Shown one piece after another: positions 3,135 to 15,999 of a stretch of 44,545 bases of DNA. Below the pieces are notes generated by a model, which was not told the DNA's origin, made no database searches, and saw only the letters and a program-made list of their open reading frames with translations. A program made the position numbers and the translations under genes. Source of the DNA: an uncultured Lachnospiraceae bacterium (GTDB taxonomy: Bacteria > Bacillota > Clostridia > Lachnospirales > Lachnospiraceae); NCBI GenBank assembly GCA_900316165.1, contig ONBW01000017.1, positions 1 through 44,545 of the forward strand. The letters run 5' to 3'. The first letter of the stretch is position 1; every line of letters begins with the position of its first letter.

Positions 3135-4507
3135 ATATTTTTAAACGAACTGCAAAAAGACTTGATATTATTGCACATTCACATAGTGCAGGTGAGTTCT
3201 TTGATAATATTACAGATAACACCTTTGACTGTATAGCAGCACTGCCGATACTGTTCTGGCTGCTGCATATGGTCAGTGTCCTGGGTTCAGCTGTATACCT
3301 TAAGTTTCGAAGCTTAGTACTCAGGCATTATTCTTTGGACCTCAAGGCTATGCTTCCCTCTATACTTCTCTGTTATGTGATCATGCTTGTGATCCTTATT
3401 GGAAAAAGTATCCGCTCAGGAAAAAAGCTGAAAGACAGAATTAAGGATAATCCAGTATATGTACTTTTCTTTATTGCTATGGTCTGGATGCTGATAGCAG
3501 TGATAGTAGATGGCTGGACTGATATCACTCTTTTGGGTGATGAAAACAGAAATGAGGGAATTCTTTCTTACTGGGGGTATATAGCAGTACTGTTTTTTTC
3601 AGCAAGTCTTATCAAGAATGATAAAGTAAAAAGATTTCTGGCAGATGTGACCCTGGTACTTTCTTTGACGGTTTTTGTATATGCTCTTTGGCATTATTAT
3701 TATTACAAACCTTTGATTGATATTACAGTCAATGAGGATTATCCATCAGCTGTTTTTATTCATTTTAATCACTATGGATACTATCTGGCAGTAAATCTGA
3801 TGATAGCAGCTATGCTTTTTTCAGTAACAAAATCGCTTAAAAGAAAGGTTTTTTATCTGATCTGCTTTGGTGCAAACACAGTGATGCTGAATCTTAATAA
3901 TACATTCGGAGCCTGGCTGGCCTGTGCTGTTGGATTTATTTTTGCACTGATTGCGTTTGCTATAAAGGACAAGAGATTTAATTTTAAAGTTTTAGCAATG
4001 TTTGTTACTTTCATGGCTGTTACTATAGTAATGACGCTTATAGGGCATGGACAGCTGAATGACCTGCTAAAGTTCTTTGGAGATGTGAAAGAAGTGGCAT
4101 CTAATCCATCAGGATCAGATGATGCCGGAACTAAGCGTTGGGCTCTTTGGAAGGCTACAGTTGGATTTATTAAGGAACGTCCTCTGTTTGGCTTTGGCAT
4201 AGAGGGAATCGATGACAGACTAAATGCTGTTGCTGATTCAGAGAGAACTCATAATGAATACCTGCAGTATGCGGTGACCTTCGGTATTCCTGAGGCCGTT
4301 GCCTACACAGCGGGGTGTATTGGAGTTTTTGTACGTAACCTTCGAAGAAGGAAGCTGTTATCAGGCGTAACGCTTGCCTGCCTTACCGTAGCTTTTACCT
4401 ACATGGTGTCGGCATGCTTCGGTATCACGCTTTACAATACTTCTCCATATCTTTTTATCTTCTTAGGCTTAGGATACAGAAGTGTAAAAGCCAGGAAAAT
4501 GATTTGA
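3131..4507 (+). CDS. Wzy/O-antigen-ligase-like polytopic membrane protein
   Basis: 458-aa integral membrane protein with roughly ten or more hydrophobic segments. Near residues 372-385 it has the sequence RTHNEYLQYAVTFGIPE, resembling the H-N-x-x-L signature of the Wzy_C/O-antigen ligase superfamily. This includes O-antigen ligases, polymerases and the pilin O-oligosaccharyltransferases PglL/PilO. A large extracytoplasmic loop before this motif (about residues 310-370) fits the family. The gene overlaps pilT by 4 nt and is followed by the pilC promoter, so it is embedded in the pilus cluster. A role in glycosylating pilin is a reasonable guess from position only; a cell-surface polysaccharide role is equally possible. 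The membrane-protein call is firm, the substrate unknown. Confidence 0.7.
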   Translation: MNIFKRTAKRLDIIAHSHSAGEFFDNITDNTFDCIAALPILFWLLHMVSVLGSAVYLKFRSLVLRHYSLDLKAMLPSILLCYVIMLVILIGKSIRSGKKLKDRIKDNPVYVLFFIAMVWMLIAVIVDGWTDITLLGDENRNEGILSYWGYIAVLFFSASLIKNDKVKRFLADVTLVLSLTVFVYALWHYYYYKPLIDITVNEDYPSAVFIHFNHYGYYLAVNLMIAAMLFSVTKSLKRKVFYLICFGANTVMLNLNNTFGAWLACAVGFIFALIAFAIKDKRFNFKVLAMFVTFMAVTIVMTLIGHGQLNDLLKFFGDVKEVASNPSGSDDAGTKRWALWKATVGFIKERPLFGFGIEGIDDRLNAVADSERTHNEYLQYAVTFGIPEAVAYTAGCIGVFVRNLRRRKLLSGVTLACLTVAFTYMVSACFGITLYNTSPYLFIFLGLGYRSVKARKMI

Positions 4508-7442: not shown

Positions 7443-8411
7443 TTGAATACTGAAATCACTAATGCCGTAGATGCAACAGACGACAAGGCTCAGTATGATG
7501 CCTGCGCTAAGAGACTGCTGGCAAATAAGAGTATTTTGGGTCATATCCTGGTGAATACCATTGACGAGTTTAAGGGAATGGCACCAGAAGAGGCTGAGAA
7601 GTACATTGAAGGTGATCCTATTATCAGCGTAGTTCCGGTAGAACCTGGATTAACGAATGCTGAGAAAAAAGATTCATCGGGAAAACGACTGGTAGGTCTG
7701 AATACCGAGAGCTCTGAGATTAACGAAGGCTTGATCAGGTATGATATTATTTTCTATGTCCGAATGAGAGATGGTCTTTCACAGATTATTGCGAACATTG
7801 AAGCACAGAAAGACAATCCGAAGTCTTATAAGATTCTGAATCGGGCGATTTACTATGTGTGCAGGCTTATCTCGTCGCAGAAGGAACGGGATTTTGAAAA
7901 TTCCAACTATGATGATATCAAGCAGGTTTACAGTATCTGGTTCTGTATGAACATGGACCACAACAGTCTTTGCCACATCAGTTTAACTGAAAGAGAATTG
8001 CTTGGGCCGTGTAATTGGGAGGGTAATCTCAACTTGCTTAATATTGTGATGGTTGGTATCACAAACGATATTCCGGAACGCGATAAGAAGTTTGAGCTTC
8101 ACCTACTAATCAGCGCGCTGCTGTCTAGTGAATTGCCAAAACAGGAAAAACTGGATATAATAAAAGAATATAAAATTCCGATTAAAGATGATATCAGAGA
8201 GGATGTGAGTGACATGTGTAATCTGAGTGAAGATGTTTGGGAAAAAGGTATGAAAAATGGTATGGAGAAAGGCGCTGAAACAGAAAGAGAAAAATTTATT
8301 CTGAATATGAATCAGAAGGGTTATACGTTAGATCAGATTGCAGATGTTGCGGGTATCAGTATTGATGATGTTAAGGCGGTTATCATGAAAAAAGAGCCTG
8401 CAATGGCATGA
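7443..8411 (+). CDS. Rpn-family PD-(D/E)XK nuclease (transposase-like) protein
   Basis: 322-aa protein of the Rpn/PDDEXK family, often annotated as 'PD-(D/E)XK nuclease family transposase', common in multiple copies in Lachnospiraceae. The catalytic core is visible as Asp101 in RYDIIFYV and Glu120-x-Gln122-Lys123 in IANIEAQKD, matching D...ExQ/ExK. The C-terminal part carries the usual charged linker (KGMKNGMEKGAETEREK) and a short helical tail (YTLDQIADVAGISIDDV), which resembles an HTH. TTG 7443 follows a strong GGGGAGGA site. No inverted repeats or target duplications flank it, so it is not shown to be a mobile element. Its cellular role is not known; DNA-nicking and recombination promotion are reported for E. 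coli Rpn proteins. Confidence 0.82.
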   Translation: MNTEITNAVDATDDKAQYDACAKRLLANKSILGHILVNTIDEFKGMAPEEAEKYIEGDPIISVVPVEPGLTNAEKKDSSGKRLVGLNTESSEINEGLIRYDIIFYVRMRDGLSQIIANIEAQKDNPKSYKILNRAIYYVCRLISSQKERDFENSNYDDIKQVYSIWFCMNMDHNSLCHISLTERELLGPCNWEGNLNLLNIVMVGITNDIPERDKKFELHLLISALLSSELPKQEKLDIIKEYKIPIKDDIREDVSDMCNLSEDVWEKGMKNGMEKGAETEREKFILNMNQKGYTLDQIADVAGISIDDVKAVIMKKEPAMA

Positions 8412-8904: not shown

Positions 8905-10776
8905 ATGAGCATTAGAATAGATCAGATCAAAATAAAGCCGGAGCATGACAGCCGCGAGTTTCTTATGAGAGAGGTGGCTGGGCGGCTTCATATATCAGAA
9001 AAAGACATCACGGACCTTCGTATCTTAAAGAAATCAATTGATGCGAGGAAGAAGCCTGATGTCTTTTTGTTGTATCAGGTTTCGGTTGATGTTAGCTGCA
9101 ATGAGGGTAGAATCCTTAAGAACTGCCGTATCAAAAATATTTTTCCCTATAAAGAAACCAGATATCAATTAAAAAGATTTGTCTTGCATGATGCGAAAGG
9201 AAGTAATTCTCTTAAAAAAAGAGTTGTCTCGCATGATGCAAAAGGAAGTAATTCTCTTGATATCGGAAAACGCAGTTCTGATGATGCAGATGGTGAGCCT
9301 TCTTTTGATGTTAATGGACGTTTTTTGTCAGATCAGAAGAAACGTCCTGTAATAGTAGGACTTGGGCCTGCCGGGCTTTTTGCCGGGCTTATTCTTTCTG
9401 AAGCAGGACTTTGTCCGATAATCATTGAACGTGGTAAGCCTGCGTCAGAGCGAAGAGAGGATGTCGAGAATTTTTTCGAGACAGGTATCTTGGTGCCGGA
9501 TTCAAATGTACAGTTTGGTGAAGGTGGAGCTGGTACTTTTTCAGATGGGAAGCTCAATACAGGAGTACATGATAAGAATGGCAGGAATCACTTTGTTCTC
9601 GAAACCTTCGTCAAGTATGGTGCTCCGTCTGAAATTCTCTATGAGGCTAAGCCTCATATCGGAACTGACAGGCTGATAGAGGTTGTTTCGAATATCAGAA
9701 AAGCCATTATCGAGAAGGGTGGAGAAGTCAGATTTAATACGAAGATGACAAGACTTTGTGTGGAGAATGGTCAGGTCACAGGAATTATTACTGAACGGAC
9801 ACCTGAGACTTTTGGCAAATCAAATGATACACGTAATTATATTTCAGTTGATGCTACATTACAGGAATCAGATAATCCGCAGATTGAGTCGGATTTTCAG
9901 AAATCAGATGATTCTTGTGTTTCTAATTCTGCAGAGTTTATAGATACGGACACTGTGATACTCGCTATCGGTCACTCGGCTCGTGATACTTTTCGCATGC
10001 TTTACGACGAAAAGATTCCTATGAGCGCGAAGCAGTTCGCTATGGGATTTCGAATCGAGCATCCGCAGAGCTTTATCAATGAGTCACAGTACGGCAGAGA
10101 GGCTGCTAAGTATCTGCCGGCGGCTCCATACAAGCTCGCTTACTCAAAGGGCGAGAGGGGAGTATATTCATTCTGTATGTGTCCGGGTGGCTTTGTAGTA
10201 AACGCTTCATCTGAGGAGGGGTATCTGGCTGTAAACGGCATGAGCAACTACGGCCGTGACTCGACAAACGCGAACTCGGCTATTGTGGTTGCTGTTGGCG
10301 CAGGTGAGTATGACTTGAACGATCCACTTGGCGCTATTGAGTACCAGAGAAGTATCGAGAAGAGGGCCTATGACCTATGTCAGGGTAAAATTCCGCAGCA
10401 GCTCTATGGGGATTTTAAGGATAACAGGGAGAGCAAGTCATATGGTGATTTCGAGTCGCTGACAAAGGGGGCTCATGCTTTTTTAAATCTACGCGGCATC
10501 TATTCTCCTGAAATAGAGCAGGCTTTTATAAAGGGCATGGACTTTTTTGATAGGCGAATTCACGGTTTTGCCAGGTATGATGCGATTCTTAGCGGTGTGG
10601 AAAGCCGTACTTCAAGCCCTGTCAGGATTCCACGTGATGAGACTTTCCAGTCTTCTATTCATGGTTTATATCCATGTGGAGAGGGCGCCGGTTACGCAGG
10701 AGGTATCACATCGGCTGCAATCGATGGAATCAAGGTCGCAGAGGCAGTAATTGGTCCTGATGCTGATGAATTCTGA
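8905..10776 (+). CDS. FAD-dependent dehydrogenase, COG2509 type
   Basis: 623-aa NAD(P)/FAD-dependent oxidoreductase of the uncharacterised 'FAD-dependent dehydrogenase' group. The N-terminal 85 residues form the usual small domain containing KKSIDARKKPDVFLLYQV. The Rossmann FAD motif VGLGPAGLFAGL starts near residue 151, with the family blocks NVQFGEGGAGTFSDGKL, FCMCPGGFVVNASSEEG and the C-terminal LYPCGEGAGYAGGI. Two inserts are unusual. Residues about 90-148 contain a 15-residue tandem repeat (HDAKGSNSL twice, 45-bp period at 9186 and 9231). Residues about 293-345 are Ser/Asp-rich and low-complexity. The homologues I know lack these. It has no ribosome site and a -10 box 7 nt upstream. Substrate unknown. 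Confidence 0.85.
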   Translation: MSIRIDQIKIKPEHDSREFLMREVAGRLHISEKDITDLRILKKSIDARKKPDVFLLYQVSVDVSCNEGRILKNCRIKNIFPYKETRYQLKRFVLHDAKGSNSLKKRVVSHDAKGSNSLDIGKRSSDDADGEPSFDVNGRFLSDQKKRPVIVGLGPAGLFAGLILSEAGLCPIIIERGKPASERREDVENFFETGILVPDSNVQFGEGGAGTFSDGKLNTGVHDKNGRNHFVLETFVKYGAPSEILYEAKPHIGTDRLIEVVSNIRKAIIEKGGEVRFNTKMTRLCVENGQVTGIITERTPETFGKSNDTRNYISVDATLQESDNPQIESDFQKSDDSCVSNSAEFIDTDTVILAIGHSARDTFRMLYDEKIPMSAKQFAMGFRIEHPQSFINESQYGREAAKYLPAAPYKLAYSKGERGVYSFCMCPGGFVVNASSEEGYLAVNGMSNYGRDSTNANSAIVVAVGAGEYDLNDPLGAIEYQRSIEKRAYDLCQGKIPQQLYGDFKDNRESKSYGDFESLTKGAHAFLNLRGIYSPEIEQAFIKGMDFFDRRIHGFARYDAILSGVESRTSSPVRIPRDETFQSSIHGLYPCGEGAGYAGGITSAAIDGIKVAEAVIGPDADEF

Positions 10777-10793
10777 GACTCTCTTGTCCTTAA

Positions 10794-11210
10794 TTCCGTA
10801 CCAAATGTTGTTTTTTGCTAGATGGTACGGAAAGCAAGAGAAAATTCGTGGTGGAATTCCGTACCTGAAGATAGAAAAAGCTAGATGGTACGGAAATCAA
10901 GAGAAAACAAGCTGCGGAATTCCGTACCAAATGGCTTGAAATGTTAAATGGTACGGAAATCAAGAGAAAACAAGCTGTGGAATTCCGTACCAAATGCTAG
11001 AAAATGTTAAATGGTACGGAAATCAAGAGAAAACAAGCTGTGGAATTCCGTACTAAAAGGCTTGAAATGTTAAATGGTACGGAAAACAAGAGATAACGAG
11101 CAACAAATTTCCGTACCATATACTAAAAAATGTCAAATGGTACGGAAATTATGTCATTTCAGGCGGGAGGCTTCCGTACCAAACGTCAAAAAGTGCGAAA
11201 TGGTACGGAA
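10794..11210 (+). repeat. Seven-unit 63-bp palindromic repeat array
   Basis: Two inverted 10-mers alternate without a single indel. Arm A, TTCCGTACCA, is at 10794, 10857, 10920, 10983, 11046, 11109 and 11172. Its complement arm B, TGGTACGGAA, is at 10823, 10886, 10949, 11012, 11075, 11138 and 11201. A-to-B gaps are always 19 nt, B-to-A gaps always 24 nt, so the period is exactly 63 bp. All seven B arms are identical; A2 and A5 each differ by one base. Gap sequences are nearly identical in units 2-4 and diverge elsewhere. The array fills most of the gap between the flavoprotein gene and mutL. It can be read as DNA sites, RNA hairpins, or tandem 20-codon ORFs. Function unknown. Confidence 0.93.
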
Positions 11211-11271
11211 ACGGGGCGAAATTATAGTAACTTCTGGCTTCGCGAAGCCCGGAAAGAGACTTGGCATTTAA
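10822..11271 (+). other. Tandem 20-codon micro-ORFs within the 63-bp array
   Basis: On the plus strand each unit from ATG 10822, 10885, 10948 and 11011 reads MVRK, eight variable codons, then NSVP or NSVL, about four more codons, Cys (Ser in the first) and a stop, immediately followed by the next ATG (TAAATG or TAGATG). In the units starting 11074 and 11137 the stop codon is replaced (TAA to CAA or GAA). Three units then fuse into a 65-codon ORF ending at 11271. No ribosome site is seen. Translation is unproven; the frame could simply follow from a period divisible by three. Confidence 0.3.
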
Positions 11272-11373
11272 AAATCTGAGTGTAAGATGTTCAAAATGAC
11301 TAATGGATAGCTGTGTGAAGTTATAGTAACTTCTGGCTCCGCGAAGCCCGGAGAGATGCCGGGCGTTTGAAAA
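11218..11373 (+). repeat. Pair of 57-bp palindromic direct repeats before mutL
   Basis: Copy 1 (11218-11273) and copy 2 (11317-11373) share a stretch opening with TTATAGTAACTTCTGGCT and are offset by 99 bp. Each contains GGCTTCGCGAAGCC or a one-base variant (perfect 14-bp palindrome at 11236-11249 in copy 1). Copy 2 adds a stem GCCCGG (11346-11351)/CCGGGC (11359-11364). They look like small REP-type elements; terminator activity is possible but there is no clean T-run. Confidence 0.75.
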
Positions 11374-11376
11374 CTT

Positions 11377-11405
11377 TTGAGTATACAAGGCAAATGGGTT
11401 ATAAT
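11377..11405 (+). promoter_or_regulatory. mutL promoter
   Basis: TTGAGT (11377-11382), 17-bp spacer, perfect TATAAT (11400-11405). ATG 11414 is 9 nt after the -10, so mutL mRNA is probably leaderless or has a leader of 1-3 nt. No ribosome site is present. Confidence 0.7.
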
Positions 11406-11413
11406 ACTTTGCT

Positions 11414-13363
11414 ATGAGAGAGATTAAAGAACTAGACCAAAGCGTAATTGATAAAATAGCGGCTGGTGAGGTGGTTGAGCGTCCGGCCTCTGTCATAAAG
11501 GAGCTGACTGAGAATGCGATTGATGCTGGGGCCACAGCCATTTCTGTAGAGATAGAGGGCGGCGGAATAGATCTGATCCGCGTTACCGATAATGGAAGCG
11601 GGATTCCGGAGGACCAGATTGAGACTGCGTTCTTAAGGCACGCTACAAGCAAACTTCGCACTGCTGAGGAACTCAGCTCTATCGGATCCTTAGGCTTTAG
11701 AGGCGAGGCACTTTCCTCTATTGCGGCTGTCTCAAAGGTAGAGGTCTTTACGAAGACAGAGGACGAGATAGCTGGCTGTCACTATATAATAGAGGGTGGA
11801 AAAGAGATAGAAAAGCAGTCGAAGGCAGCGCCGGATGGCACTACTTTTATAGTCAGATCACTTTTCTACAATACACCTGCCAGAAGAAAATTCCTGAAGA
11901 GTCCTACGACAGAGGGAAACTATATAAGAGACCTATTAGAAAAGCTTGCGCTATCACACCCAGATATAGCGTTTAAGTTTCGCACTAACAGGGCAGATAA
12001 GTTCATTACTGTAGGTGACGGAAAGCTTCTTGACGCGGTTTACTGTGTCTATGGCAGGTCTATAGCAAATCACCTGATTGCGGTAGACAGCTACGAGGAG
12101 GGAATCCACATCACGGGTTTCCTGGGGAAGAGCGAGCTGAACCGTGGAAACCGGACGATGGAGATTTTTTTCGTAAACCAGAGGCTTGTAAAAAGCCAGC
12201 TGCTCTCGAAGGCCTTGGAAGCAGGTGGAGAAGGTTTCGTGATGAAGCACCAGTATCCGTTTGCGATACTTTTCTTAGATTTTGACAGGGCTCTTGTAGA
12301 TGTGAATGTGCACCCGACAAAGCAGGAGGTCAGATTCTTAGATGAGCCGCTTGTCTATAAGCTTGTCTCAGAGACAGTCCACAACGCTTATTCAGGTGGA
12401 GATACAGTAAGAGATACTTCGGATTTCACGAAGGAAGCGAAGGCGCAGGAGTCTAAGAAGGAAGATTTAAGACAGAACGCTCCAGAGCCTTTTGAGAAGC
12501 AGAGACTTTCGCAAATAAAAGAAGCAATAACGCACCAGATAGCGAACGACTCTCCATATGAGAGAAAATATGACAGAAACAGCGTTGACAGGTTCCTCTC
12601 GGATAGAAGGAGTACACTTTCAGAAGAATCTCCAAATGCCACCCCATCTGGCAATTTCCCAGGTGAGAATCCATACGATAAGCCTGCTGCCGCTGAGGAT
12701 GACAGTGCCTTTGACGCGCCTCTGCGGAAAGAGACGATAGGAAAGCAGTACGAGCAGACAGCCTTTATCTCAAAGGAGTCTGCGATAAACCACAGGCTTA
12801 TAGGACTCGCGTTTGATACCTACTGGATTTTTGAGTATAACGATGCACTTTTCTTAGTAGATCAGCATGCAGCACATGAGAAGGTCAACTACGAGAGGCT
12901 GATGCGCCACCTGAAGGATCGTGAAATGACGTCTGAGATGATATCGCCATCAATCGTGATAAGTCTTACAGGGCAGGAAAAGCAGAGCGTATTTGATCAT
13001 ATAGACGCGTTTGAGGATCTGGGATTTCGGATTTCGGATTTTGGCGAGAACGAGGTGGCACTCGAGGCAGTGCCGGGAAATCTACTTGATATCGACCCGA
13101 GGGAGCTCTTTACGAATGTGCTTCAGGGAATAGACGACTGGAGCAGAGAGAAGGTCCCGCAGATAGTCCGTGAAAAAATAGCTTCAATGTCATGTAAGGC
13201 TGCTGTCAAGGGAAATCAGCCGATTTCCGCGACAGAGATGGATAATCTTTTTATGGAAATGATGCAGGCCGACGAGCCTTATCACTGCCCACACGGCAGA
13301 CCTACAGTGGTGCGGATATCGAAGGAAGAGCTTGACAGACGATTTAGAAGGATAGTGAACTGA
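11414..13363 (+). CDS. mutL: DNA mismatch repair protein MutL
   Basis: GHKL ATPase that links MutS mismatch recognition to strand incision, 649 aa. The N-terminal ATPase has the conserved blocks IAAGEVVERPASVIKEL, ENAIDAGA, DNGSGI, RHATSK and GFRGEALSSI. A low-conservation linker (about residues 330-450) separates it from the C-terminal domain. That domain carries the endonuclease/zinc motif DQHAAHEKVNYE (Asp483) plus SCKAAVKG and CPHGRPT, as in MutL of bacteria lacking MutH. The start MREIKELDQSVIDKI matches the family. The gene follows the repeat region and its own promoter; its stop overlaps the mutS start by one base (TGATG), so the two are coupled. Confidence 0.97.
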   Translation: MREIKELDQSVIDKIAAGEVVERPASVIKELTENAIDAGATAISVEIEGGGIDLIRVTDNGSGIPEDQIETAFLRHATSKLRTAEELSSIGSLGFRGEALSSIAAVSKVEVFTKTEDEIAGCHYIIEGGKEIEKQSKAAPDGTTFIVRSLFYNTPARRKFLKSPTTEGNYIRDLLEKLALSHPDIAFKFRTNRADKFITVGDGKLLDAVYCVYGRSIANHLIAVDSYEEGIHITGFLGKSELNRGNRTMEIFFVNQRLVKSQLLSKALEAGGEGFVMKHQYPFAILFLDFDRALVDVNVHPTKQEVRFLDEPLVYKLVSETVHNAYSGGDTVRDTSDFTKEAKAQESKKEDLRQNAPEPFEKQRLSQIKEAITHQIANDSPYERKYDRNSVDRFLSDRRSTLSEESPNATPSGNFPGENPYDKPAAAEDDSAFDAPLRKETIGKQYEQTAFISKESAINHRLIGLAFDTYWIFEYNDALFLVDQHAAHEKVNYERLMRHLKDREMTSEMISPSIVISLTGQEKQSVFDHIDAFEDLGFRISDFGENEVALEAVPGNLLDIDPRELFTNVLQGIDDWSREKVPQIVREKIASMSCKAAVKGNQPISATEMDNLFMEMMQADEPYHCPHGRPTVVRISKEELDRRFRRIVN

Positions 13364-15999
13364 TGTCAGAATTATCTCCTATGATGCAGGAGTATCTAAA
13401 TACAAAGGAACAGTACAAGGACTGCATACTTTTTTACAGGCTCGGTGATTTTTACGAGATGTTCTTTGATGACGCAAAGCTCGTCTCAAAGGAACTAGAC
13501 CTTACGCTTACAGGGAAAAACTGCGGAATGGAAGAGAGGGCGCCGATGTGCGGCGTCCCGTTTCATGCTGTGGACACTTATCTGACTAAGCTGGTAAGAA
13601 ACGGGCATAAGGTTGCCATCTGTGAGCAGCTCGAAGACCCGAAGGAAGCCAAGGGACTGGTAAAGCGCGGTGTCATAAGAATCGTAACTCCAGGTACAGA
13701 CCTTTCGAGCGGAGAAAGTGACGGCTCGAATAATTACATTGCAGCCATCTACAAGGATAAAAAGTCATACGGCCTTGCCTTTGCCGATGTATCGACCGGG
13801 GATTTCTATACGACGGAGACCTCTGATATGTCAAAGGTAATAGATGAGGTGCAGAAATACGACCCGTCTGAGTTTATCTATAACAGTGTGTTTTGTGATG
13901 AGCAGCCAGATTTTATAGCTGATCAGACTGCAAAAAAGAAGCTCTGCTCAGAGGCAGACCGGTCTTATTTTTTAATGGAAAATGCAGAGGAAGTCTTAAA
14001 GCGACACTTCAAGGTCTATTCGACCGCGGCCTTAGGACTCGATGGAACTCCGGCTTCGCTTATCGCAAGTGGTGCACTTACTGCATACCTATTAGATACG
14101 CAGATGAATGACCTCTCACATATGAACGAGATTCATCCGTATTCTATCGGCAGGTACTTAGTCATCGACCATTCGACCTATAGGAACTTAGAGCTTACTG
14201 AGACGATGCGCGAGAAGGAAAAGCGCGGTTCGCTGCTTTGGGTACTAGATCACACTAAGACAGCGATGGGAGCAAGGAAGCTTAAGAATATGATAGAGCA
14301 TCCTTTGCTTGATGTCGCTGAGATAAACGGCAGGCTTGATGCGATAGATGAACTCAGCGCTTCGATGGTAGACCGCGAGGAGATAAGAGAGTATCTGTCC
14401 GGAATCTATGACCTGCTGCGTCTTCTGATGAAATTCTCGTATAAGAGCGCTAACCCGAGGGACCTCTTAGCGTTTAAGGATTCGATAAAGCCACTAGGCC
14501 CTATAAAGAATATCCTGTCCGGATTTAACTCAGATCTCCTTAAGAGGCTCGCAGACGAGATTGATCCGATGGATGATTTACGTGACCTTCTTGAGGCTGC
14601 GATAGATGAGGATGCGCCAGCGACGGTTCACGATGCGGGAATCCTGAAGGATGGCTTTGATGAGGAGGCCGATAAGCTTCGCAAGGCAAAGACAGAGGGC
14701 AAGCAGTGGCTTTCAGACTTAGAGGCAAAGGAGAGGGAACGCACAGGAATCTCGAAGCTTAAGATCAAGTACAACAAGGTCTTCGGATACTTTATCGAGG
14801 TGAGCAATGCCTATAAGGACAGCGTTCCTGACGACTACATCAGAAAGCAGACCTTGGTAAACGGCGAGAGGTTCTACACGAGTGAGCTGAAGGAACTTGA
14901 GAATACAATCCTTGGCGCACAGGATAAGCTCGTATCCTTAGAGCATGAGATATTTGATCAGATCCTTGAAAAACTAAACGACTCCGCCATAAGAATCCAA
15001 AAGACTGCTGAGGCCATAAGCCTTTTAGATGTCTTAGCCTCAGTTTCTGATGTCTCACAGAAGAATCACTACGTAAGGCCTCACATAAATGAAAATGGCG
15101 TCATAGATATAAAGGGCGGCCGTCACCCGGTTGTTGAAAAAATGATTCCTGACGGATCGTTTATCGCAAATGACACCTATCTGGATGATGAGGATTTCTC
15201 AACAGCTATTATCACAGGCCCGAACATGGCAGGCAAGTCGACATATATGAGGCAGACTGCGCTTATAGTTCTTATGGCTCAGTGCGGCTTTTTTGTGCCG
15301 GCGGATTCAGCTGATATCGGAATCTGCGACAGGATTTTTACAAGAGTAGGTGCAAGCGACGACTTAGCGAGTGGCCAGTCGACCTTTATGGTAGAGATGA
15401 ACGAGGTCGCCAATATCCTTAAGAATGCTACGAAAAAGAGTCTTGTTATACTCGATGAGATAGGACGTGGAACCAGCACCTTTGACGGCCTCTCAATCGC
15501 GCAGGCGGTAGTAGAATATGTAACCGACAAGGATAAGATAGGCGCTAAAACCTTATTTGCGACGCACTACCATGAGCTTACCTCACTTGAGGGAAGGCTT
15601 CCAGGCGTGCACAACTACTGCGTCGCGGTAAAGGAAGAGGGAAAAGATGTTACTTTTCTTAGAAAAATAGTTCCCGGCGAGGCCGACAGAAGCTACGGAA
15701 TCGAGGTAGCAAAGCTGGCTGGTGTGCCGGCTCCGGTACTGCGCCGCGCCAGAAATATCTCAAAGAAACTTGAGAGAGAGGACTTCGAGAACAAGGCTTC
15801 ATCAAAGAAGGCCGATGAAAATATCGAGGGCCAGATCTCATTTGCGGATATTTTTAAAGAGCCTGAAGAACCTAAAGACGACGGCAGAAAAGACGAATTT
15901 GTAAACGAGATAAAGAGCATAGATGTAAACAGCATGACGCCTATCGAGGCGATGAACAAGCTATTTGAACTGAAGGAAAAAGCAGATGGAATTGATTGA
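13363..15999 (+). CDS. mutS: DNA mismatch repair protein MutS
   Basis: Mismatch recognition ATPase, 878 aa, usual length for MutS1. The N-terminal domain begins SPMMQEYLNTKEQYKDCILFY-like and carries the mismatch-stacking motif GDFYEMF near residue 27. Connector, lever/clamp and ATPase domains follow. The Walker A is GPNMAGKST near residue 619, with the downstream blocks DDLASGQSTFMVEM, LDEIGRGTSTFDG and ATHYHELTSL. The C-terminus has the usual short dimerisation helix region (SMTPIEAMNKLFELK). Its order downstream of mutL is reversed from the more common mutS-mutL. The last 14 nt overlap the next gene. Confidence 0.97.
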   Translation: MSELSPMMQEYLNTKEQYKDCILFYRLGDFYEMFFDDAKLVSKELDLTLTGKNCGMEERAPMCGVPFHAVDTYLTKLVRNGHKVAICEQLEDPKEAKGLVKRGVIRIVTPGTDLSSGESDGSNNYIAAIYKDKKSYGLAFADVSTGDFYTTETSDMSKVIDEVQKYDPSEFIYNSVFCDEQPDFIADQTAKKKLCSEADRSYFLMENAEEVLKRHFKVYSTAALGLDGTPASLIASGALTAYLLDTQMNDLSHMNEIHPYSIGRYLVIDHSTYRNLELTETMREKEKRGSLLWVLDHTKTAMGARKLKNMIEHPLLDVAEINGRLDAIDELSASMVDREEIREYLSGIYDLLRLLMKFSYKSANPRDLLAFKDSIKPLGPIKNILSGFNSDLLKRLADEIDPMDDLRDLLEAAIDEDAPATVHDAGILKDGFDEEADKLRKAKTEGKQWLSDLEAKERERTGISKLKIKYNKVFGYFIEVSNAYKDSVPDDYIRKQTLVNGERFYTSELKELENTILGAQDKLVSLEHEIFDQILEKLNDSAIRIQKTAEAISLLDVLASVSDVSQKNHYVRPHINENGVIDIKGGRHPVVEKMIPDGSFIANDTYLDDEDFSTAIITGPNMAGKSTYMRQTALIVLMAQCGFFVPADSADIGICDRIFTRVGASDDLASGQSTFMVEMNEVANILKNATKKSLVILDEIGRGTSTFDGLSIAQAVVEYVTDKDKIGAKTLFATHYHELTSLEGRLPGVHNYCVAVKEEGKDVTFLRKIVPGEADRSYGIEVAKLAGVPAPVLRRARNISKKLEREDFENKASSKKADENIEGQISFADIFKEPEEPKDDGRKDEFVNEIKSIDVNSMTPIEAMNKLFELKEKADGID

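Follow-up and report, generated by a model that had tools for sequence, protein, structure and literature searches.

An array of inverted 10-mers upstream of mutL in a Lachnospiraceae genome and its putative partner, a gene for a nuclease-like protein

The 44,545-nucleotide stretch of DNA analysed here (the window) comes from an uncultured Lachnospiraceae bacterium and carries, upstream of mutL, seven regularly spaced units of inverted 10-mers. This array is probably an orphan copy of a repeat family whose partner is a gene elsewhere in the genome, on contig C48; the putative protein encoded there would recognise the arms of the repeats, spread the arrays and amplify them. The gene family and tandem arrays go together in many genera, a tie that the preliminary description of the array had missed, although part of its interpretation is supported. 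For intergenic REP repeats of bacteria a good case has been made for one driver, the RAYT transposase; should the C48 protein move arrays, repeats of this kind would have arisen at least twice, by way of unrelated enzymes.

The array (family 1 below) is as it had been described, with seven units in exact 63-bp steps, each made of two inverted 10-mers (the A and B arms) and of gaps of 19 and 24 nt:

10794..11210, no strand assigned: array of family 1, 63-bp period, unit TTCCGTACCA-19-TGGTACGGAA-24
10794..10832, no strand assigned: palindrome of unit 1
10857..10895, no strand assigned: palindrome of unit 2, A arm TTCCGTACCT
10920..10958, no strand assigned: palindrome of unit 3
10983..11021, no strand assigned: palindrome of unit 4
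11046..11084, no strand assigned: palindrome of unit 5, A arm TTCCGTACTA
11109..11147, no strand assigned: palindrome of unit 6
11172..11210, no strand assigned: palindrome of unit 7, the last

The B arms are indeed identical in all seven units, and so are five of the seven A arms, those at 10857 and 11046 carrying one mismatch each. With at most one mismatch, TTCCGTACCA is matched 14 times in the window, against 1.2 matches expected and a maximum of four among 100 shuffles. The drift of the gaps is real (mean pairwise identity within the array 64% for the 24-nt and 58% for the 19-nt gap), and the claim that no indel has accumulated holds for the arms, which stand at exact 63-bp steps despite a 63-bp TRF row with 2% indels and a 62-nt consensus. 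A coding repeat (63 bp are 21 codons) was rejected, as several window units, read by eye, contain stops and the period in relatives is 65 bp.

The array forms part of a stretch that is missing from three congeners. Its surroundings are as follows:

8905..10776, plus strand: gene for an FAD-dependent protein (PF21688), stop 17 bp before the array
10777..11391, no strand assigned: stretch missing from three congeners (array and right flank), ends approximate
11218..11373, plus strand: other repeat with core TTATAGTAACTTCTGGCTYCGCGAAGCCCGGA, two 57-nt copies 99 bp apart, within the inserted stretch on the side between array and mutL
11414..13363, plus strand: mutL, start 203 bp after the array

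In the three congeners (G010, G002 and G012) the FAD gene is followed by a short spacer and then by mutL, with the same TATAAT box as in the window, where the spacer measures 637 bp; the comparison covers 3 of the 12 congeners with mutL, the FAD gene not being matched upstream in the other nine. At mutL, all 12 lack a family-1 unit even when three mismatches are allowed. The site between a parE-like and a parC-like gene is similar: a single family-1 unit lies there in the window's genome, and congeners have no family-1 unit but short spacers (12 bp in G009) or unrelated repeats; in G011 and G007 (loci L092 and L087) the spacer before parC holds other short repeats at the place of the unit. The repeat with core TTATAGTAACTTCTGGCTYCGCGAAGCCCGGA has one weak further copy, at C27. 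The gene mutS (window 13363-15999) directly follows mutL with a one-base overlap, and a gene at window 7443-8411 weakly resembles Rpn (recombination-promoting nucleases), below the NCBIfam cut-off.

Family 1 is dispersed in the window's genome (G000; 2.59 Mb in 117 contigs), which bears out, for that genome, the earlier suggestion of a repeat family. With up to three mismatches, 26 units occur at 11 sites on eight contigs (two sites on C22, three on C48 and one each on C39, C50, C51, C67, C70 and C84); C48 holds another seven-unit array and a three-unit array, both with the 63-bp period. C39 and C51 probably meet in an array of a third family (see below) and could be the ends of a single site, because this same other array terminates both. 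None of the 11 sites overlaps an open frame longer than 122 aa, and several units are 6-46 bp away from the start or stop of a gene. That arms and spacing are constrained, likewise proposed before, is borne out as well: with a gap of 17-21 nt allowed, all 16 exact palindromes in G000 have a gap of 19 nt, and 44 of the 54 exact TTCCGTACC 9-mers lie inside units, one of them in a truncated unit at C39, and ten elsewhere (all counted by hand), while the reversed control word occurs 18 times. Over the 26 units the arms deviate from TTCCGTACCA/TGGTACGGAA at 11 of 520 positions (98% constancy), whereas in the 19-nt gap identity between loci is 44% (297 pairs), which makes the gap weakly conserved rather than random.

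According to the preliminary description, a maintained array would be doubtful if relatives had the same arms at irregular spacing, or if the array were absent from all close relatives and had no other copies. Arms outside the unit spacing are not more frequent than chance. The exact palindrome is indeed missing from all 12 congeners, with many copies in its own genome; at three mismatches, G012 is the only congener with matches (two isolated, one weak), and family-1 arms are rare, occurring in 3 of 397 genomes of the window's family. A DNA uptake sequence was rejected on the count of TTCCGTACC, 54 copies in 2.6 Mb, 44 of them within units.

At C48 a 262-aa reading frame (G000:C48:111348-112133, on the opposite strand) lies between two family-1 arrays, which are alike in their ends. 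A search with this protein in seven genomes gave ten matches in five genomes, and beside eight of the ten there are tandem arrays whose units differ between loci:

C48 homolog: 63-bp array on both sides
C64 homolog (G000): 53-bp array on both sides
C107 homolog (G000): 53-bp array on one side
C27 homolog: 51-bp array on both sides, the right one about 1.2 kb off
G012 C43 homolog: 52-bp array on both sides
G012 C19 homolog: 72-bp array on both sides
G146 homolog: 65-bp array on one side
G002 homolog: 50-bp array on one side, at a contig end

The two homolog loci of G145 have no array; one of them starts at a contig end. The array families of C64 and C107 also occur away from their genes, at C22/C15 and at C39/C51, respectively, where the fetched stretches contain no homolog, and both form mosaics with family 1 (at C22 and at C39/C51). 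The second family of G000 (L023:1593-2119 at C22, L047:25-434 at C15, L080 at C64) has a period of 53 bp and arms like TTACGKACAGA/TCTGTCCGTAA, and abuts a family-1 unit at C22; the third (L021:1-368 at C51, L018:1-113 at C39, L083:980-1416 at C107) also has a period of 53 bp, with arms TACGTGTGA/TCACACGTA. The same arrangement is seen in G351, a genome in one contig of 2.86 Mb. Here the gene at 2.646 Mb is accompanied by a 71-bp array whose arms are ACACGTAATT/AATTACGTGT, and a paralog at 0.650 Mb lies between 94-bp arrays with GTACCCCGA arms. In 400 kb sampled elsewhere in this genome, ACACGTAATT/AATTACGTGT arms recur in an array at 1.081 Mb, within a 20-kb stretch that contains no homolog, and there are four other arrays (42, 52, 66 and 74 bp). 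Two genomes speak against a strict pairing of gene and array, namely G211, with an array and no homolog in the genome, and G145, with four array loci and two weak homologs on other contigs; it is possible that the gene was lost there after seeding.

Several further elements were seen at these loci. Genes for Wadjet-type JetB3 and JetC3 lie at L016:5412-10585, with 9 bp between the JetC3 stop and the C48 array. A hairpin element (CCCCGACGGC..GCCGTCGGGG within an outer stem) stands next to two family-1 sites (L023 about 2240-2370, L016 about 11080-11205; 80% identity over 120 bp). In G145, 23/46-bp arrays (GGTAAGCAGATTTTTCT; L055:1511-1644 and 4113-4247, contig C129) bracket an IstA/IstB-like pair (names assigned by eye), and two arrays (L053 and L056) have a common 77-bp left flank, 80% identical, with a terminator-like hairpin ACATCAGG..CCTGATGT.

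The association is seen in many genera. At E<=1e-10, a profile built from eight homologs found members in 125 of the 397 genomes sampled from the window's family, up to six of them in one genome (the best six candidates were scored in each); a nameless protein family of this spread is tied to a REP-like array design. Among 80 loci from 59 genomes, drawn from 150 places listed, 53 have a tandem array (TRF, period >=40) within 1.5 kb of the gene and 27 have none. Near the gene there are 71 arrays, or 0.315 per kb; elsewhere in these stretches there are 20, or 0.019 per kb, a 16-fold difference, and at loci that had not been inspected beforehand an array was present in 38 of 60, versus 8 of 138 control windows of the same size. 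The arrays favour the upstream side: 44 of the 70 loci with a full upstream flank have one there, at a median distance of 142 bp, and the best array is upstream at 43 of 52 loci, 16 of the 71 nearby arrays being downstream. A test independent of TRF asked for a 9-mer occurring at least twice on each strand; 20 of 71 upstream flanks of the full 900 bp contain such a word, as do 5 of 76 downstream flanks and 6 of 768 control windows.

That 63 bp is a whole number of helical turns had been pointed out for the window array, and whole-turn periods recur in unrelated arrays. With one best array per locus and periods of 45-100 bp (8 of the 71 nearby arrays are outside this range), 52 loci have periods of 52-54 (23 loci), 61-64 (13), 70-75 (13), 83-84 (2) and 94 bp (1); at 10.5 bp their mean resultant length R is 0.79, with a phase of 0.00. 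Reduced to one array per protein cluster, R is 0.77 for 42 clusters at 60% identity, 32 at 50% and 9 at 40%; of 20,000 draws from a smoothed null, none was as high at 60% and 50%, and p=0.003 at 40%. The fit is broad, 10.0-10.75 bp being nearly equal to 10.5, and the 16 background arrays, a small control, gave R=0.10. At L144 and L173, whose proteins are homologs (65% identity) from different genera, common arms with AAGCATCA are found at periods of 73 and 62 bp, as if the arms had stayed and the period had shifted by about one turn. The family-1-like arrays of G145, G146 and G211 count against the rule, as their 65 bp is no exact multiple of 10.5.

The two arms of family 1 vary independently, like two separate sites. 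Among 37 palindromes aligned from G000, G012 and the rumen genomes RUG12610 and RUG13917, there are eight departures at pair 7/33, seven of which abolish pairing, and 194 of 500 shuffles attain the covariation score; this speaks against a transcribed hairpin as the selected feature, one of the roles first considered; a covariance model with an imposed stem was used as search profile only. In the wider sample, 27 of the 71 nearby arrays pass p<=0.1 for inverted arms (30 shuffles), where about 7 would be expected, and 2 of 18 distant ones do; the inverted design thus shows plainly in some arrays and escapes detection in the majority. Twenty-two arrays have strong inverted arms, and in 16 of these conservation is higher in the arms than in the remainder of the unit (means 90% vs 83%). 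Arms track the protein at close range only: at >=60% protein identity, 10 of 23 pairs have repeated 7-mers in common (mean 1.9), and in the lower identity bands the counts are 10/48, 25/128, 269/1043 and 107/572 (19-26%; means 0.4-0.6). Such arms, each lying beside its own protein gene, would be a natural collection from which DNA specificity might be read.

The 262-aa protein of C48 has PD-(D/E)XK-like motifs in its C-terminal part and an N-terminal region of unknown fold. Eleven residues are invariant in 88 of 88 proteins (R155, S156, E159, Y175, E176, D190, F191, E205, H206, G208 and Y215), among them the acidic core E159, D190 and E205, which gives the PD-(D/E)XK pattern with E-H replacing E-x-K. 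The C-terminal half matches the PADLOC profile PDC-S68 in all three proteins scanned (E 2e-23) and, weakly, HEAT_CxxC_PDDEXK; at cut-off, none of nine proteins matched a Pfam family and none of five an NCBIfam family, and among PDB chains there was nothing better than E 0.33. As the third motif is E-H and not E-x-K, and as no PDB match is meaningful, the assignment as a putative nuclease draws on motifs and profile hits. A similar domain forms the C-terminus of AAA/RecD-like helicase proteins on plasmids, where the likeness covers the C-terminal 29-40% of the query at 35-46% identity (eight plasmid records); those domains are borne by helicases, whereas here the protein stands alone with about 260 aa, has its own N-terminal region and is linked to arrays. 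Homolog matches comprise three phage-labelled and eight plasmid records; a single one of these 11 covers the greater part of the protein, and TRF detects no tandem array in that record.

From these features a mechanism can be proposed. The C48 protein would bind the inverted arms, probably in dimers that cooperate by touching one another along a single face of the helix; such contact would hold periods near n x 10.5 bp, so that whole-turn periods amount to a direct, testable prediction of the protein's placement on DNA. It might then nick or break the DNA at or near the arms, and repair would copy array DNA, which could both lengthen arrays and seed new ones between genes. The array at mutL would be a passenger, tolerated between stop codon and promoter. 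Taken in general, this would be an undescribed self-spreading system, a stand-alone nuclease-like protein with arrays of inverted sites, dimers stacked at whole turns, spread by cut-and-copy repair and several specificities per genome; we put this broader reading forward tentatively, at somewhat less than an even chance. Literature searches of partial coverage (most subscription papers and bioRxiv preprints lay outside it) gave, among the papers listed, no published link between protein and array, and at this coverage the absence of reports is therefore weak evidence of novelty.

Of the known repeats, BOX elements of Streptococcus pneumoniae are likewise intergenic, with a central module in variable copy number; BOX lacks the two alternating inverted arms on a helical period and is not known to have a cognate enzyme gene. 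A close likeness exists to RAYT-REP/BIME systems. RAYT genes are flanked by REPs, cognate repeats are dispersed between genes in alternating orientation and regular spacing, clusters are hybrid or mosaic, and several paralogs with different repeats occur in one genome (Nunvar 2010, PMC2817692; Di Nocera 2013, PMC3733652). The system proposed here would work like RAYT-REP and is not one, because enzyme and repeat both differ: the gene lies between its own repeats, which is the REP/BIME arrangement in form only, and its product is PD-(D/E)XK-like where RAYT is a Y1 HUH enzyme; the 11 sites of G000 are extragenic, dispersed, alternating and regularly spaced, yet periods are near whole turns, and family 1 consists of separate 10-mers around a 19-nt gap in place of a GTAG/CGTC-tagged short-loop palindrome with complementary stem changes.

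Mobilisation of a REP/BIME element by a RAYT transposase, which alternating orientation, regular spacing, mosaic clusters and intergenic position would suit (compare PMC2817692), is accordingly very improbable. Of three Y1 genes in G000, one is a disrupted copy at C81, and the two scored are of IS200/IS605 type, passing the IS200 cut-off but falling short of the RAYT one; no Y1 gene lies on a family-1 contig of that genome. In the same Y1_Tnp search, covering G000, G145 and G146, there was one RAYT-like gene below cut-off in G146 and none in G145. Unit edges, inspected by eye, have no GTAG tag, and there is no co-varying short-loop stem. Nearly as improbable is an array of transcribed hairpins or guide-like RNAs of the CRISPR, type III antitoxin or TIGR kind. 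Constant repeats with variable gaps would fit it, and in TIGR arrays, too, two short repeats take turns next to a protein gene, in some cases one with nuclease domains; yet Tas proteins are described with a Nop domain and TIGR arrays with guide spacers of 9-12 nt (PMC12045711), whereas no Pfam family reached the cut-off in nine of nine proteins here, hence no Nop domain was found, and the gaps are longer and not spacer-like. Arms do not co-vary, and Rfam, run on 11 sources, gave one tRNA and no array at gathering score, and chance-level matches only at E up to 10. In the 22 strong-arm arrays, which come from other genomes, conservation outside the arms comes close to that within them (83% vs 90%), which argues against acquired spacers there.

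Ordinary tandem duplications, common near the gene by chance and with arms that nothing recognises, would agree with the 44 of 71 nearby arrays that have no significant inverted arms and with the 82-95% identity of the rest of the unit between copies in 16 of the 22 strong-arm arrays, as after recent duplication; we regard them as an improbable explanation, given the 16-fold enrichment near the gene, the clustering of periods, which the 16 background arrays do not have, the arms of G000 that are 98% constant where the 19-nt gap is 44% identical between loci, and the arrays with cognate arms far from a gene. Somewhat better placed, though still unlikely, is the possibility that the arrays are operators, through which the protein regulates its own gene from the upstream array, with orphan arrays as a regulon and the nuclease-like domain as a relic or in a regulatory role. 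The upstream position of 43 of 52 best arrays, their median distance of 142 bp and the G000 units 6-46 bp from a gene start or stop are what operators would show; retention of the nuclease-like motif residues in 88 of 88 proteins, the 16 of 71 nearby arrays that are downstream, and the absence from all congeners of a family-1 unit at mutL or parE-parC are not. The orphan neighbours identified (mutL, parC/parE-like, EPSP synthase, LysR and RNase H genes) also have no evident common pathway. The reading of the arrays as sites that the C48-type proteins bind, cut and spread is thus preferred.

A phage or plasmid origin was considered as well and rejected, the arm pattern being absent from viral contigs, homologs being confirmed in none of 20 candidate stretches there, and the one phage or plasmid record that matches most of the protein having no tandem array by TRF. 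The arm-pattern scan of genome contigs gave 10 loci, namely arrays in two rumen genomes and eight lone palindromes, three of which are one hairpin common to related genomes of the Muricauda group.
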